Shown: positions 561 through 64,000 of the stretch, in pieces
Layout of the letters: each line of letters starts with the position of its first letter
Position numbering within the stretch: the stretch's first letter is position 1
Origin: Pascua guehoae
Lineage: Eukaryota > Basidiomycota > Tremellomycetes > Trichosporonales > Trichosporonaceae
DNA: 64,000 nt
Direction: 5' to 3'
NCBI GenBank assembly: GCA_001600415.1
Contig: BCJX01000006.1
Location: 831,971-895,970, forward strand
Notes under the pieces: generated by a model
Told to the model about the DNA's origin: nothing
Databases searched by the model: none
The model's input: only the letters and a program-made list of their open reading frames with translations
Made by a program: the position numbers and the translations under genes

Positions 561-3444
561 CTAATCGACCTCTTCGACCTCGACGTCCATGGGGTCGTCT
601 TCGTCAAACTCCGAGTCGTCGTCGTCGTCGTCGTCGGCCTGGATGACGTCTGCGTCGTGGTTGGGCACGACGACGAGGCGGTTGCGGACATGGTCGGTGG
701 TGACGTGGGCCGTCTCGCCGTCGCGGATGCGGCCCTGGAGAATGAGCTTTGAGAGGGGGTTGAGGATTTCGTGCTGGATCAGACGCGAGAGGGGGCGTGC
801 GCCGTACGAGGGCGAGTAGCCAGCGTTGGCGAGCCACTCTTGGGCGCTTTCGTCGGCAGACAGCTTAATCTTGCGGTTGTTGTGCTTGAGGCGCTGCTGG
901 ACCTCTTGGAGGCGGACGTGGACGACCTTGAGCATGTCGGCGCGCGACAGGGACCGGTAGAGGATGATGTCGTCGATACGGTTGATAAACTCGGGCGGGA
1001 ACGTGCCGCGGATTGCAGTCATGACCTTTTCGCGCGTCTCGCCCGTCACGGGGCCCTCGGTGGGGTTTTCGTTCAGGTAGACGGACCCGACGTTGGACGT
1101 CATCATGATGATTGTGTTGCGGAAGTCGACGGTGCGTCCCTTGCCGTCGGTGAGACGGCCGTCGTCGAGCACCTGCAGGAAGAGCTGGTGGAACTCGCGC
1201 GCAGCCTTTTCAATCTCGTCAATCAGAATCAGGCAGTAGGGCTTGCGGCGCACAGCCTCGGTGAGCTGGCCACCAGACTCGTGGCCGACGTAACCGGGAC
1301 CAGCACCGATGAGACGCGAAATCGAGTGGCGCTCAGAGTACTCTGACGCGTCGATGCGGATCATGGCCTCCTCCGAGTTGAACATGACACTGGCGAGCGT
1401 CTTGGCCAGCAGCGTCTTACCCGTACCCGAGGGACCGACGAGGAGGAAGGACGCAATGGGGCGGTTCTGGTTGGACAGACCCGAGCGGCTGAGGCGGATT
1501 GCGTTGGCGACGGCGCGCACACCTTCGGGCTGGCCAATGACCTTTTTGGCCAGGAGCTTTTCCAGGCGGAGGAGCTTTGCCTTTTCCGTCTCGACGAGGC
1601 GCGAGACGGGCACGCCCGTCCACTTTGCCACAATCTCGGCAATCATCTCGGGCGTGACCTGCTGCAGGTTGGAGCCGCGCTCCTCTTCCTTCTTTTCGAG
1701 CTCCTTGAGCTTGGCCTCGCGCTGCGGGATTGCCTGGTACCGAATGTCGGCGGCGGTCGCGAGGTCGTACCTGCGCTCGGCGTCGTCGGCCTTTGCGCGG
1801 AGCTCGTCGATGCGGCGGCGGAGCTCGTGGATCTCGTCGCCGAGGTGCTTTTCGTTTTCATACTCGCGCTTGAGCGGCTCGAGCTTGTCGATAATGTCGG
1901 CAATGGCCTTCTTGGCAATATCGAGGCGCTCCTTGGACGCCTCGTCCTTTTCACGCTCGAGCGCGTGAATCTCGACTTCGAGGCCGAGCTTTTTGCGCTC
2001 GAGCTCGTCAATGGCCTCGGGGCGCGTCTCGCGCGCAACCTTGACGGCAGACGCGGCCTCGTCGAGCAGGTCAATGGCAGAGTCGGGCAGCCGGCGAGCA
2101 GTGAGGTACTGCTTGGCAAGCTGGGCAGCGAGCACGAGCGCAGAGTCCATGATGCGCACACCGTGGTGCGTCTCGTACTTTTCACGGATACCACGCATGA
2201 TGGCGACCGTGTCGGGCACAGAGGGCTCCTCGACGATAACCTGGGCGAAACGACGCTCAAACGCAGAGTCCTTTTCAATGTACTCGCGGTACTCGTTCAG
2301 TGTCGTGGCACCAATGACCTTGAGCTTGCCGCGCGCAAGCATTGGCTTGAGCAGGTTGGCAGCGTCCATGCCGCCAGAGTCCGACTTGCCGGCCATGATC
2401 AGGTGGCTAGTATGTCAGCAAATATCATTGGAAGACGAGACTTTAGCTGCAACTCACATTTCGTCAATGAAGAGAATAATCTGCGTTCCTTCGTCGCCCG
2501 ACTTTTCGACCTCGGCAAGCACGGCCTTGACACGTTCCTCGTACTCGCCCTTGTACTTTGCACCGGCCATGAGGGCACCCATGTCGAGGGAGAGCAGGCG
2601 GGAAATGAGCGAGGCCGGGACGTCGCGGTCGACAATACGCTGTGCGAGGCCTTCGACAATGGCCGTCTTACCGACACCAGGCTCACCGATGAGGACGGGG
2701 TTACCCTTGGTGCGGCGTGCGAGAATACGAATGACGCGGCGAATCTCATTGTCACGACCAATGACGGGGTCGAGTTTTCCCTCGGCAGCAAGCTCGGTGT
2801 AGTCGACGCAGTACTTGCGGAGCGCCTCAAACTGGTCCTCGGCGCTGCGCGAGTCGGCCTTGCGTGTTCCGCGCTTGCGCTTGATTTCGTCGATGAGGTC
2901 CTTTGGCTTAATCTGGCACACCTTGAGAATGTCCTTCATCTCCGAGTGGTCCGTGTGGATGAGCGCCACGAGGAGGTGGTCGATGGCGACAAACTGGTCG
3001 CCATTCTCCTTTTGCAGCTTTTGCGCGTCCTTGAGCACGGCATGGTACGAGTTGGTCAATGGCAGGGGCGGGTCGGGCTTGGGCTCAACGACGGGAAGCT
3101 TGTTCAGTCGAGAGAGCATCTGGCGGTTGAACGAGCTCGTGTTGCCGTTGCTCAGCTTTTCGACTGCCTGCTGCAACAGTGTTGGCTGGGGGTTGATGTC
3201 GGTCGCCGTTGGCTCCTGCCAGAGGACGCTGATGAGGTGGAGAGGGTGCACTGTGGATTGTCAGCGTGTGCGCACAGGCGTGCATTCGGACCCGCGAGGG
3301 TTGGTTGACACCAGTAGTCCCACAGCGTGGGAGCTAGCCACCTCGTCCAGCTCGCTCGTACGTACCTTGGGAGTTACCCATCTCCTCGGCGAGTTCGAAC
3401 GAGGCCTTGATGGCCTCGGACGACTTGTCTGTAAAGTTGTCCAT
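561..3444 (-). CDS. HSP104: Hsp104/ClpB-type protein disaggregase
   Basis: Hexameric AAA+ disaggregase that threads aggregated proteins through its pore with Hsp70 and Hsp40 in the cytosol and nucleus. Three exons join in frame: 3444-3366, 3250-2458 and 2406-561, giving 905 residues, close to the usual fungal length (about 900). The start is [12 protein letters not shown]. In order one sees the Clp N-terminal repeat domain, nucleotide-binding domain 1 (Walker A GEPGVGKT, Walker B ILFIDEI completed across intron 2), the heptad-rich M-domain coiled coil, nucleotide-binding domain 2 (Walker A GPSGTGKT, Walker [11 protein letters not shown]) and an acidic tail ending EEVD. The second intron falls exactly inside the first Walker B codon series, which supports the splice model. 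Heat-shock control is expected for the family, but I could not mark a clean heat-shock element by eye. Confidence 0.97.
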
Positions 3445-52433: not shown

Positions 52434-52872
52434 GAAGGGGGAATCGTTGGATAGGGAAGTGCAGCCGTCTATTTATATGCTGCACAGGTCGAGATATTCC
52501 ACTCGTCCATGAGGTCACTGGAACGTGATGTGCCTGCTTCGGCAGTCACATGCCCCATTCCGCACTGGCGTGCAAGGCAGCCAAACCGCCCAATTAAGCA
52601 GAGGCTGTTCCTGGAAACTGTTGTACTGAGCAATAGAACGTAGAATGAATGAAAGCCTGGAGGCCAAGATGCGCTCGCTGCTAGAGCAGGATGCCTCCTC
52701 AAGCCACGTCCTCTGAAAGCTGCAACCTGTTGTAGAAGCGAGGCGAACGAGTTTACGTGAAGGGAGGTATAAAGTGTTCTGGTAACCTGCGATGTTCCCC
52801 CGTGTCCTCCAGCCTGCCTTGTCCCCGCCCNCCCCCCTTTGCCAACCCCGCCAACAAACAAACTCTCACACT

Positions 52873-52940: not shown

Positions 52941-54434
52941 ATGATAGAACGAACATGCGCGCGTCAGTATATGTCAATCGACCATTATCATGCTCAATAT
53001 CGTGCAGTTGTACCATGCACCGTGACCATCAAGAACTACGGGCTCGAGACAAGGGTGGAAGACGGCGGCCCTACATTTTTCTGTATTTCCTGTACGAGAC
53101 CCTCGTGCTCGCCACCAAGTCCAACTTGGCAGATACTTTCCGGTTGCACCTACTGTAATAGTGACAGCCTTGTCGGGCTGCCACGGGCCCCCGCGGGGTA
53201 CCGCACCGCAATGCAGAATGGCGGGAGCGCGCTTTCACTACCCGTGACAGCTGAATCAGTACCATTATTGGAAGTGTGGTGTTCTTCTCGTGAGCGCTCA
53301 TGCGAACCGATACCCCCAAACTGTCAAAGTGGCACTTCCGACACCCTCGCAACCGCCGTTTGTGGTTGAGAGCAGGACTGAAGGAGATAGTACTCCCAGT
53401 ATGTCAAGTGAGGCTGAAGAGGGGCCTTGTCAAGAACATGTCGTCGAGATAGATAGCGGGGTCAAACAGTGCTCCGCTGCATGTATGGTGGGTGGATGGT
53501 CAAGACAATTCCCCATTCTCCTAAGATGTACAGTATGCTGCCTTTTGTGAGCGACATGTTTTATCAATTTCAGGGCCAGACTCCGCTACACTGATCCCAC
53601 TGATCATGGTGGTCCCAAGCTGACGGGAGTTTACACTCCTGACTCTGTGTACCGTCTGTATTCCTTCTTCCTCCTCACTCACTTGGGGTTGAGGCTGTGA
53701 GACTGATCTTCTTATTTCCTCTTGACTTTAATCCTTCTCCATCACGACACTGAGTCTAACACACTCAGCGCTCTGTCGCTCCTAATCACGATCGTGGGCT
53801 CATCGGCGCTCTCACTTCCATAACCACCACACCGTTGCAGATGTTGGTTGGCCCGAGCTCGCTCATTGATCGAGCGAGCTGTGCGCGGGGCCTCGCACTC
53901 GTGGGCACGCAGTATATAGGCCATCTCGGTAGACTGTATTCAACATGCATTGCTCTATCGCTCGCTCGACAGTAGAAACCAGAGAATACAGCAACATGAA
54001 GTGCGGAGATACTGATTTGTACGTATAAGGTCTCGCCCTGCCTCGCCGCGCCCCGAGCGGCTAGGCAGGGCTAACTACGCTACAAGACAGTCACTATTAC
54101 AAAACACGCCACCTTCCCTCCCTCCCCCTTGTCACATTCAACCCTCCGCTATCGCACCCGGCCGTCATTAGTGCCGCTCCGACTCGCGTGCAGCGAAGAA
54201 GAGGCGGACGGCAAAGGAAGCGGACGGCCCAACGGACATGATTACCTCGAGCGTAAATGACCCGTCTGTCGGGACACCCGTGCGCAACAATTTCCTTCCG
54301 ATCCTTCCTATGGCTGACTAGTTTATGATTGGCACGTGCTCAGAGTTTGAAAAACAGAAAAGACCAGACGGAAGCGGGTGCTACTGTTTCGCTTCTGGAT
54401 GACGCAAAAGGTTGCCCAGGGAGACGAGCATCTA

Positions 54435-60753: not shown

Positions 60754-61905
60754 TTAGTAGAAGAAAGGCTGAGCCCCAGCAGATCGTAGCAGCAAGGCTA
60801 CTCTACTGCTTACAGTACCCATTCTATCAGTGGAGCTGCCCTGGGGAGAAATACCTGTGGAACATGGTCGTCCTGTCCTGTTCGAGGGACCTCCCCGACG
60901 CCGTTTGCGACGACCGCCGATGCCACCAATCGCAGCTGCCAATTCGGCATCGGTCTTGTCCGTCTCGAGCTCTTCGTTCTTGCGCTTCGTGTTAACAACG
61001 TCACGAGGCTTTGACACAGCTTCACGGGGGAGGGCGACCGCGGAGGAAGTCGCTGCTTGCTCGAGTTTCTCTACGCGGGCGAGGGTCGCTGCAGCTGTTT
61101 GCTGCAGGTGCGCGGCCGTCTTGTTCTGGTTGGCGTCTGCCAGCGCCTCCAGGAATCGACGCGCCTCCTTGCTGTTCCCGCGGAAGGTCGTGGTGTGCTT
61201 GACGAGTCCTTCAACAGTGTCTTTACGCGCGGCGCTTGTCGCGTAGAGGGAGGGGTAGTCGCGGAGTAGTTCGACGAGACCACAATGCGTTACCAAGAAG
61301 TCTGTGGCAGATTGTTGTTGTCGCTGCCTCACCACCATCGTAAACGGGCGGCTGACGCCTGTCCGCGATGTCGACGCCGAGTTGATGCCGTTAAACGAGA
61401 CGCCGAAGCGAATCTTCAAGCCTGGCTCACAAGCGCGCCGCACAGCCGTCGCTGCCGCCGGAGTGACGAGTTCGCCTTGGCACGAGATTCCATAGGACAC
61501 GCAACGAGGCGGGGTCGCGTTTGCTCCGTGGGTGACCACCGCGAAGGAGATTAAACGCGCCGAGCCGGGCGGCACGAGGAGCATGCTGGCGAGGGTCGCC
61601 CAATTCTTGGGCGCTAGTTGGCAATAAAGCGCGTTGGCAAAGCGATACGCCAGCACGCCCCGAGGACGCGCGTGCTTCCCAAAGGACACCGGCCCGCCGG
61701 CGTTCTCACCCCCGCACCACGCTGCGCGCGTCCGCACCTCGTCGTTGAGGTCGGGATGCGCACGTACCCGCACCTCTACTGCCGCTGCCCGGCCCTCGAT
61801 CGTGGCCTCGAAGAATACGGACTTCGCACCGTGGCCGCCAGCGACAAGCGCCCTCCAAGCGTCAAGCGTGCCCACCGTAATGGGGCACCGTAAACAGTCG
61901 AGCAA
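60754..61905 (-). pseudogene. Family B copy B1 (5'-truncated, chimeric start)
   Basis: A 383-codon frame containing the longest uninterrupted family-B sequence. Blocks are AKSVFFEATIEGRAAAVEVR, RTRAAWCGGE, LAYRFANALYCQLAPKNWAT, CVSYGISCQGEL, LKIRFGVSFNG, GLVELLRDYPSLYATSAARK and SKEARRFLEALADANQNKTA. A coiled-coil-like stretch and a strongly basic segment GGRRKRRRGG (nuclear-type signal) follow. The apparent start (MLDCLRCPITV) is not native. At about 61889 the sequence switches to a short duplicate of another B gene and then a 30-nt poly(A), and the half of the protein upstream of HHGR-AW is missing. It lies immediately upstream of A1 on the same strand. No function is assignable. Confidence 0.6.

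Positions 61906-61949: not shown

Positions 61950-61979
<30 letters not shown>
61950..61979 (+). repeat. Poly(A) tract of about 30 nt
   Basis: An uninterrupted run of A on the plus strand. It is directly attached to a 60-bp segment (61889-61949) that duplicates part of family-B copy B3 (63232-63294), in the same orientation. Confidence 0.95.
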
Positions 61980-61981
<2 letters not shown>

Positions 61982-62807
61982 GTAGGAGAGGTTAAGTCTA
62001 CTTGCGCAATTTACGTCGTCCCCCCTTTCCTCCCAGAGCAGCTGCAAGTATGTCGTCGTCGGTGTTTGCATCCCGGTGGCGCTTGGTCAACAACTGGTCG
62101 CGGACGGGGGCGTTGGTGTCACGCTCCGCAATGACCATGTCGGGAACCATGAGCCGACCCAGACGATCGACCGCGCCTTCCGCGATTGATGCCTGGATTG
62201 CAGCAAGGTGCGACTCGACCTTGGCGGAATTGCTGTCCGCGAGCACTTTGAGAAAACGCTGGGCAAGCGCCATGTTGCCAATGAACGTGGGTACCTTAGT
62301 CGCGACCTCCTTCGCCGTCAGAGCTCGTGCCTCGCGCGATGCATAAAGCGATGGGTAGTCTTGGATCAGGTCGGCAAGACCGGCGTGTAAGGCGAGAATG
62401 TCCGCGGACTGTCTCGCTCTCTTGGCGGTGACTGCGAACCAGTTACACATGCCCGTCTCGCTGGCCGCCGCAGCTTTGGTGGTGCGGAGATTGAGGCCAA
62501 ATCGAACCTGGTTGCCCCGCGAGACCGCACTCAAGACGCCGTGTGCGATGGCGGCCGGTACATTGTTTGCTCGGCGGGATAGCCCGTAGGCCACAGAGCG
62601 CGGCGGCTCGTCGCCGGGAAGGTGGACCATGACCCCGTTGTTGGAATAACCGCTGTACAAAAAGGGAATCGATTAGCCAAGTGTTACCCACTCAACACGC
62701 AGGCTAAGTAAGTAGTTTGAGCTGGCCCTCTATTTCCAACTCCCCCCGTAGGGCGGACTCTCTCGGCGGAGTCTCCCAACGAACTCGAACGCCGGCTCAT
62801 GGGCCCA

Positions 62808-62826
62808 GATATTTTGACTCTTAATC
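62808..62826 (-). promoter_or_regulatory. Primer-binding site for half-tRNA-Lys(CUU)
   Basis: The plus-strand text GATATTTTGACTCTTAATC equals tRNA-Lys(CUU) GATAGTTTGACTCTTAATC except at tRNA base 26. The match crosses the tRNA splice junction (TTA|ATC), so it fits the mature tRNA and not the tRNA gene. It abuts the CA end of the 5' LTR with no spacer. Confidence 0.85.
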
Positions 62827-62871
62827 TGTTGGAATAACCGCTGTACAAAAGGGAGTCGATTAGCCAAGTGT

Positions 62872-63131
62872 TGTTGGGATTTTACCGTATAGCAAAAGGG
62901 CTATCGATAACCCTTTTGCCGCGTCGAACCATCGCGCATCGGCGTTCGACCCTGCCCATGGCAGGGGAGCGACAACAGGTCCTTTGGGAACCTACACCAG
63001 GCATCAGGGGAGCTCTAAAACGGGAGAGTTCACTGTTGAGACCGACCCTAGTCGTAAGGGGAGTGTTGGAATACAACTCCGGCCGCTCAACAGCATCGAT
63101 AACCCTTTTGCTATACGGTAAAATCCCAACA
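62872..63131. mobile_element. 260-bp TIR element nested in the 5' LTR
   Basis: The ends are inverted repeats of 37 bp with a single mismatch: TGTTGGGATTTTACCGTATA and onward to TATCGAT, and its complement. The target duplication AGTGT lies at 62867-62871 and 63132-63136. The uninterrupted 3' LTR at 62639-62697 (CCAAGTGTTACCC) shows the empty site. It has no coding capacity. A second near-palindrome (GCAAAAGGG...CCCTTTTGC) lies just inside the left end. It is MITE-like, and the superfamily is not assignable from a 5-bp duplication and TG...CA ends alone. Confidence 0.88.
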
Positions 63132-64000
63132 AGTGTTACCCCTTCCAACACCCGTAGGAGACTAAGCGGCAGCCCCCGGGGCCAACAGCAGCATGTCGGC
63201 CAACGTAGGCCAATTTTTTGGGCCATCACAGACAATCGAGCGAGTTTGCGTGCCTGCACGCGAGCCTGGCACGCGGATCTCGGTGGACGCCGAAGGCAAC
63301 AGTGTCGCCAGGCTCGTCCTGTCCGCACCATTCAGCCCGCACCTGCGTCTCGTCCGCGACGGTGGGGTGCACCCGCAGGCGGACCTCGGCGAGGGCTTGT
63401 GAACTGTTAACAATGCACTCAAAAAACGACGAATGGGTGCCGTCACCAGCTTGCACGAGGTTCTTCCATGCGAAACGCCCGTGGTGATGGACGGCGCGGG
63501 TGGTGAGTGGCTCGAGGGCCCCATTGCTGAGCTCGGTGGCTCGTGCGCCGCGCGATAGGTCGGGGCGATACTTGGTCTCTTCACGAAGGCCGACAGCGGC
63601 GTGGAAGTCGGGCTGGCCGCGGAAGTTGGTCTTGGCAGCGGTTATCACCCTGTTGATGTCGATGGTGGTACAGTACCGCCAGGTAGGCCTGATATGGGCC
63701 TCCCCCATGACGATCTCGGTCGGGAGGCGCATTGATTGGCAAACGAAGGCTATGGGGGAGTATCCAGCGAGGCCGAATCCGCACGGCGATACGAGCACCA
63801 TGCTGGTGTCTTGAACAGCGTGGAAGAGCGGCACGAGCCCGAGCTTGTGAAGAATCGCGGTTGTGGCGATCTTCTCGAGCGAGTTGAAGATCAGGTACTC
63901 ACGATGGGACCGTGCCAGGTCGAAGATGTGGCCGAGGATGCCGTTGGCGGATATGATATCCGCCGCTGTCGTTTGGACCAGGTCCAGAGTTGGACCTGTC

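Follow-up and report, generated by a model that had tools for sequence, protein, structure and literature searches.

Putative miniature long terminal repeat retrotransposons of Pascua guehoae with a tRNA-Lys(CUU) primer site, foreign 5' ends and a companion family beside tRNA genes

A 64,000-nucleotide stretch of the Pascua guehoae genome (contig BCJX01000006.1, positions 831,971 to 895,970; hereafter the window) carries near its right end a minute element bounded by long terminal repeats (LTRs) and interrupted by a second one, which raises the question of what such elements are, what primes their replication and whose machinery they use. An earlier note on the window had taken the outer element for a non-autonomous miniature primed by a tRNA-Lys half and served by a copia-like partner, a description that is supported within this genome (33.6 Mb in 28 contigs, with all repeat counts being lower bounds). 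In the joint explanation preferred here, which is judged probable as a whole, the family A of the outer element and the family C of the nested one would both be non-autonomous miniature LTR retrotransposons (TRIMs). Two results go beyond the earlier description: several copies bear foreign 5' LTRs, and the nested element belongs to a second putative TRIM family found mostly beside tRNA genes.

At least 26 places match family A, nine with the interior and 17 with the LTR only, so that the element is not single copy. The limits of the LTR and of the primer binding site (PBS) and the 5-bp target duplications proposed for the window copy recur in several other copies, and an exact 5-bp duplication lies at the edges of 11 of the 17 solo LTRs. 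For the LTR of family C, at least 42 matching rows were obtained (40 of 46 candidates scored), some of which are the two LTRs of a single copy, while its interior is present in L003, L006, L117 (degraded), L002, the nested window copy and the fragment L124. L010, the best-preserved relative in family A, measures 59 + 138 + 59 = 256 bp; its two LTRs do not differ at any of the 59 bp, and its duplication is AGTTG; L003, of family C, measures 68 + 165 + 68 = 301 bp, with LTRs identical over 68 bp and the duplication TAGCG. Exact 5-bp duplications were found by script in L010, L005, L008, L007, L012, L003, L002 and the nested copy, and by reading the letters in the outer window copy. Both families have a PBS after the 5' LTR and a polypurine tract (PPT) before the 3' LTR, as expected of a TRIM, and interiors of 138-165 bp leave no room for a helper gene; the window copies depart from this layout, the outer one being without the PPT/LTR junction and the nested one without the PBS. 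The assignment thus draws on the order LTR-PBS-interior-PPT-LTR, the 5-bp duplications, the many solo LTRs, the agreement of the PBS with a spliced tRNA and the occurrence of copia-type elements with the same PBS.

The outer element, read in its own sense, comprises an interrupted 5' LTR-A, the PBS, the interior and a shortened 3' LTR-A (Table 1). Its length of 247 bp stands, as 512 bp minus the 265 bp of insert and duplication, and so does the 5-bp target duplication, which reads CCCGT on both sides in minus-strand sense. The claim of two 59-bp LTRs holds in part: the 5' LTR-A (45 + 14 bp) and the LTRs of L010 have that length, whereas the left repeat has lost the PPT/LTR junction and is LTR only at 62639-62686. 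In other family A copies this junction reads, in sense, GAGTGGGAG followed by TGTTGGAAGGGGCAACAC; in the window copy about 13 bp spanning it are gone and the interior bases TGTTGAGTGGG occupy the expected LTR start, and the 59-bp length of the left repeat is a coincidence. That the element interrupts a repeated reading frame is supported without joining the flanks, because the end of the left flank and the start of the right flank match adjoining points (58427 and 58426) of a related stretch, at 33 and 43% amino-acid identity. The nested family C copy was inserted into the 5' LTR of this element in plus-strand sense, and its fold-back 5' end may reflect a minus strand that primed itself at the stage of second strand transfer.

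Table 1. Features of the two elements in the window and of the hybrid copies elsewhere in the genome
Feature	Positions	Strand	Remarks
Outer element, putative family A TRIM	62639..63150	-	247 bp without nested insert and its duplicated 5 bp
CCCGT target duplication of outer element, left copy	62634..62638	.	read from letters
CCCGT target duplication of outer element, right copy	63151..63155	.	read from letters
3' LTR-A (sense), shortened	62639..62686	-	first ~12 bp lost; by comparison with other copies
Leftover interior before lost PPT/LTR junction	62687..62697	-	taken as LTR in the earlier note
Interior as counted in the earlier note	62698..62826	-	129 bp; letters
B-box-like GTTCGAGTT, hypothetical	62782..62790	-	family A interior; one mismatch to GTTCGANNC
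PBS	62807..62826	-	19/20 bases complementary to spliced tRNA-Lys(CUU) 5' half ending at position 40
5' LTR-A (sense), inner 45 bp	62827..62871	-	
A-box-like TTGTACAGCGGT in 5' LTR, hypothetical	62837..62848	-	
AGTGT target duplication of nested element, left copy	62867..62871	.	
Nested element, putative family C TRIM	62872..63131	+	260 bp; aberrant 5' end, PBS absent
Nested 5' end, inverted LTR-C 3' end around palindrome TATCGATA	62872..62908	+	inverted repeat
B-box-like GTTCGACCC of family C, hypothetical	62944..62952	+	same word in L003 and L002
Family C PPT AAGGGGAG	63056..63063	+	compare GAGGGGAG and GGGGGAG of elements E and F
3' LTR-C	63064..63131	+	68 bp
AGTGT target duplication of nested element, right copy	63132..63136	.	
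5' LTR-A (sense), outer 14 bp past nested insert	63137..63150	-	
L005, foreign 5' LTR B			141 bp
L008, foreign 5' LTR, divergent B			115 bp
L007, foreign 5' LTR B'			132 bp
L012, foreign 5' LTR B			cut short by deletion
L002, foreign 5' LTR D			229 bp

In both families GATTAAGAGTCAAA directly follows CAACA and matches spliced tRNA-Lys(CUU), the primer tRNA proposed earlier; compared with the spliced 5' half of the genome's own tRNA and counted back from position 40, the match covers 19 of 20 bases in family A, 18 in the copia-type element F and 16 in the copia-type element E. Since CAACAGATTAAGAGTCAAA has 26 sites in the genome at up to three mismatches, 12 of them exact, against none for the reversed control, a chance match is unlikely; five of the 26 coincide with places of tRNA-Lys genes. 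Moreover, a pattern for split genes (TTGACTCTTAN{1,31}ATCAA) gave 67 matches against none in the control, one being the element L002/L035 and 66 being tRNA-Lys-like. Among six of these 66 that were fetched, ARAGORN called four as Lys(ctt), placing an intron at 37/38 in two of them and folding the other two as intron-less, and one as Glu(ctc) through a shifted intron, and made no call in the sixth. The 14-base match TTTGACTCTTAATC crosses the splice point and is therefore present in the spliced tRNA and absent from these tRNA-Lys genes; it is common to families A and C, elements E and F, L038 and L042. A first pattern for tRNA-Lys was discarded (three matches against 12 in the reversed control, the single one fetched not being a tRNA), as was the idea that one of the 15 exact sites of GACTCTTAATC might be a tRNA-Lys gene without intron: ten of these loci were negative at the site by tRNA finder and the other five are family A elements. 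That a single genome contains 66 candidates for intron-split tRNA-Lys(CUU) genes, and that their introns vary, is an observation in its own right. Sequence comparison thus supports a TRIM primed by a half-tRNA, in which minus-strand synthesis would start from a tRNA-Lys half that ends near position 40.

The earlier note had suggested looking for full-length copia-like elements with the same primer site; the copia-type elements E and F have this site, and their PPT is also similar to that of families A and C. Element F, on C17, accounts for one of the 12 RVT_2 rows in the genome and has the PBS, the PPT, 129-bp LTRs that are 96.9% alike and, by reading, the duplication GGCAT. In element E the LTRs measure about 113-118 bp and the PBS copies are L034 and L040; its 3' LTR is seen downstream of RVT_2 matches in L080 and L088, the latter match being weak and below the cut-off. 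Among the RVT_2 loci only E and F could be tied to the PBS, the 5' ends of the others lying outside the data. The RNA of families A and C would be packaged in copia-type particles, and the partner's integrase would insert their cDNA. Separately, an element in L042, at about 1430-3011 in sense, has the same PBS; its LTRs are about 70 bp long (96.5% over the 57 bp aligned), and its interior, of about 1.46 kb, is similar to family C at the 3' end. The matches linked to element E at C4:2856, C23:1739 and C1:3966532 are all no more than about 3 kb from a contig end.

Most of the family C copies whose flanks were read lie just upstream of tRNA genes. Specifically, in 25 of the 31 places read (nine further places and one inverted copy beside L002 stand outside this count), the 5' end of a tRNA lies 12-40 bp from the LTR edge, on either side, and in 20 of these the distance is 12-19 bp; for L002 it was measured from the edge of its D LTR. 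The evidence consists of ARAGORN calls at 18 places, ARAGORN positions and reading at L002 and L006, inspection by eye at L168, L170 and L173, a sub-threshold partial Rfam match at L120 (21.5 vs 29 bits) and coordinates compared with tRNA-Lys places at C5:1121586; the position of the tRNA is firmer than its identity, given the odd anticodons or introns in several of the ARAGORN calls. No tRNA was seen at C21:163527, C15:334524 and C16:652487 (60 bp read per side), at C2:3534385, at the fragment L124 and at the window copy. This reading of the flanks supersedes a weak comparison with a partial tRNA list, in which two of 25 places lay within 1 kb. Targeting by family A was rejected, its 26 places showing no excess against the partial list, and ARAGORN finds a tRNA within 1.5 kb at two of the 26 loci and within 60 bp at none; family B loci have none (0/8, ARAGORN). 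The LTR named D lies within 300 bp of an entry of the partial list at four of 15 places, with 0.05 expected and at most 3 over 20,000 random sets, and L002 and C1:3201497 are two more such places. Since LTR D occurs near tRNA genes like family C, it may be the LTR of family C's helper. Copies of the 229-bp type of D near tRNA genes are at C1:2754776, C4:1099093, C5:1121357, C7:302265, C1:3201497 and C2:2840723. A gypsy helper beside LTR D was also considered and dropped: none of the 55 gypsy integrase matches in the genome is linked to LTR C or D. The integration machinery of family C would recognise the initiation complex of RNA polymerase III (Pol III).

With regard to transcription, RNA polymerase II (Pol II) acting through weak signals in the 59-68-bp LTRs, with words resembling Pol III boxes arising by chance, is the account that is moderately favoured. 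B-box-like words lie 36-37 bp past the PBS in family A, with one mismatch, and 45-55 bp past it in family C, and were seen by eye in L038 and L042. Such words are short, L010, L013 (degraded) and L033 have none within one mismatch, element E, taken as driven by Pol II, also has one-mismatch words, and two family C copies lacking a tRNA show no significant pair of boxes (P of 0.13 to 0.84 over their four flanks). What speaks for Pol III is the pair at tRNA-like distances beside the nested copy, since from its edge toward the family A interior the A-box-like word begins at 23 bp and the B-box-like word at 80 bp; shuffling gave a P of 0.027 on this side and 0.80 on the other (150 shuffles, uncorrected), and eight of ten tRNA-bearing control copies reach P <=0.05 on the tRNA side. 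The signals suggest, without proving, a possible Pol III promoter with one part in the LTR and the other in the interior. The fuller proposal, tentative at best, is that families A and C are driven by Pol III, with a promoter whose A-box lies in the 5' LTR and whose B-box lies in the interior, the primer site separating the two, and with cDNAs that often finish their 5' end on strong-stop DNA of the helper. If true, the split promoter would explain how a 59-bp LTR can act as a promoter and how family C, which seeks tRNA genes, landed in the 5' LTR of family A at a tRNA-like distance.

The interior of family A or C is held by 14 copies and the fragment L124, and both ends are readable in 12 of them: in family A the window copy, L010, L013, L005, L007, L008 and L012, and in family C L003, L006, L117, L002 and the nested copy. 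All 12 have a native 3' LTR. The 5' LTR is foreign in five, of the same family in six and replaced by the inverted 3' end of the LTR in the nested copy. Each of the five hybrids has an exact 5-bp duplication around the entire unit, and in L005, L007, L008 and L002 the foreign LTR is joined directly to the native PBS. Two incomplete copies are L014, which starts with a B' LTR and has lost its 3' part, and L011, from which the 5' end and PBS are absent. Elsewhere, LTR B occurs solo, with an exact duplication at two of eight loci tested, and LTR D alone at no fewer than 15 places. A full-length B-interior-B element in L061 was rejected, its second B-like stretch having no PBS. By eye, the 5' LTR of the family C copy in L006/L033 ends D-like and may be a C/D mosaic, and minus-strand remnants in the window at 53971-54106 and 52726-52856 are similar to LTR B and B' in the 3' part, at 84% over 44 bp and at 81% over 48 bp.

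In the standard scheme of reverse transcription both LTRs of one product copy one sequence; a copy with two unlike LTRs should therefore be the direct product of its own event. Second strand transfer occurs in the PBS and, when intermolecular, leaves its breakpoint at the U5/gag border; in the available text of that source it is generally intramolecular, the intermolecular form being less usual in HIV-1 (PMC5651808). The hybrid 5' ends are best attributed, on balance, to intermolecular second strand transfer, for which the expected trace is a foreign 5' LTR that meets a native interior at the PBS, with the native 3' LTR behind it. The plus-strand strong-stop DNA of a co-packaged element with LTR B, B' or D would anneal through the shared PBS to the minus strand of the TRIM, and the product would start with the complete LTR of the partner, followed by the interior of the TRIM and its native LTR. 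If two linear cDNAs underwent homologous recombination prior to integration, matching target duplications would likewise result, and within-family recombination during transposition bursts is reported for Onsen in the excerpts available (PMC5668417); recombination could, however, give both polarities and use the interior, whereas the native LTR is always behind (12/12), the foreign one always in front (5/5) and the junction falls between LTR and PBS in the four hybrids that retain it, which makes this origin rather unlikely. It is very improbable that families A and C are short DNA transposons resembling miniature inverted-repeat transposable elements, with TGTTG...CAACA ends, 5-bp duplications and A-interior-B copies as ordinary units with imperfect inverted ends, given that, although the TGTTG and CAACA ends are mutually inverted and hybrid copies have unlike ends, L010 and L003 have identical direct LTRs, solo LTRs carry duplications, a PPT-like tract precedes the 3' LTR, and the PBS is common to copia-type elements and matches a spliced tRNA, which already disfavours such a reading.

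Several observations weigh against TRIMs completed by intermolecular transfer and inserted beside tRNA genes. L006 has no matching duplication, in a check of the 12 copies other than L013 and L117; ungapped, family C agrees at 14 of the 20 PBS bases; in L012 a deletion removed the junction of LTR and PBS, and the exact junction is readable in four of the five hybrids; and the window copy of family C has no adjacent tRNA gene. Moreover, the flanks covered around E and F contain no nearby tRNA gene, and these two elements hence do not explain the targeting of family C. Lastly, no element combining LTR B or D with this PBS was found and LTRs B, B' and D gave no convincing match beside RVT_2 among the loci compared, so that the donors of the foreign LTRs remain putative.

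The size and the anticodon priming of such elements are already known, and the surprising parts are the foreign 5' LTRs and the association of the nested companion with tRNA genes. A soybean study, judging by its title, reportedly concerns LTR swapping between a helper and its non-autonomous partner; unlike that swapping, as far as a title conveys it, the exchange seen here consists of single insertions with two unlike LTRs. The nearest fungal system is Helenus, whose mini-elements (TRIMp3) are primed from tRNA anticodon loops and reported in Pucciniales and some Agaricomycetes; the primers named in the available text are Tyr, Ile, Asp, iMet and Asn, with Lys not among them (PMC10886601). Families A and C share with Helenus, as described there, the fungal host, the 5-bp duplications, the PBS to a spliced-tRNA anticodon loop and a copia helper deduced from a shared PBS, and differ in their 59-68-bp LTRs, total lengths of 256 or 301 bp, tRNA-Lys(CUU) primer and the placing of any B-box in the interior. 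A tRNA-derived sequence in the LTR, another Helenus trait, was not seen: ARAGORN finds no tRNA in the window, and at Rfam gathering level 20 family A loci yield only two host tRNA genes, both outside the LTR. The exceptional smallness suggested earlier is no record, as the plant TRIM CcaRetroS9 has 233 bp with 52-bp LTRs (PMC4717578); with the 292-bp SMART it belongs to the same size class of gene-free LTR-PBS-PPT-LTR miniatures, from which the present families differ in their fungal host and in hybrid LTRs and tRNA-gene targeting, neither of which appears in the available parts of those descriptions (PMC4717578, PMC3281118). Family C resembles Ty3, Tj1, Beta/Tca8 and DGLT-A, which insert a few to about 30 bp upstream of tRNA genes; unlike these Ty3-gypsy elements, which are precise upstream inserters with genes of their own, it is gene-free and has a PBS common to copia-type elements, and the copia elements Ty1, Ty2 and Ty4 insert within a window of about 1 kb, according to the available text (PMC5911963). 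The best-ranked matches in the open-licence literature contained nothing on LTR miniatures in Trichosporon-like fungi, hybrid-LTR TRIMs or TRIMs aimed at tRNA genes, which does not prove absence.

Elsewhere in the window, related reading frames form side-by-side repeats at about 57.1-58.6 kb, 60.75-61.9 kb and 62.0-63.9 kb; the one frame compared with Pfam (60754-61905) matched no family. A run of about 30 A at 61950-61979 is perhaps the tail of a retrocopy or a long interspersed nuclear element, and an exon of carbamoyl-phosphate synthase shares 91% identity with a protein of Trichosporon asahii and 90% with proteins of Cutaneotrichosporon and Vanrija.

Weak similarity is what the helper of a non-autonomous LTR element is usually inferred from. 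Should a hybrid owe its foreign 5' LTR to its helper, genomes would record co-packaging directly, in a form readable from sequence alone; each hybrid would then be a fossil naming the helper packaged with it, and the hybrids together would document a series of natural intermolecular second strand transfers. Family C, in turn, would combine precise insertion at tRNA genes with a primer site that indicates copia, not gypsy.
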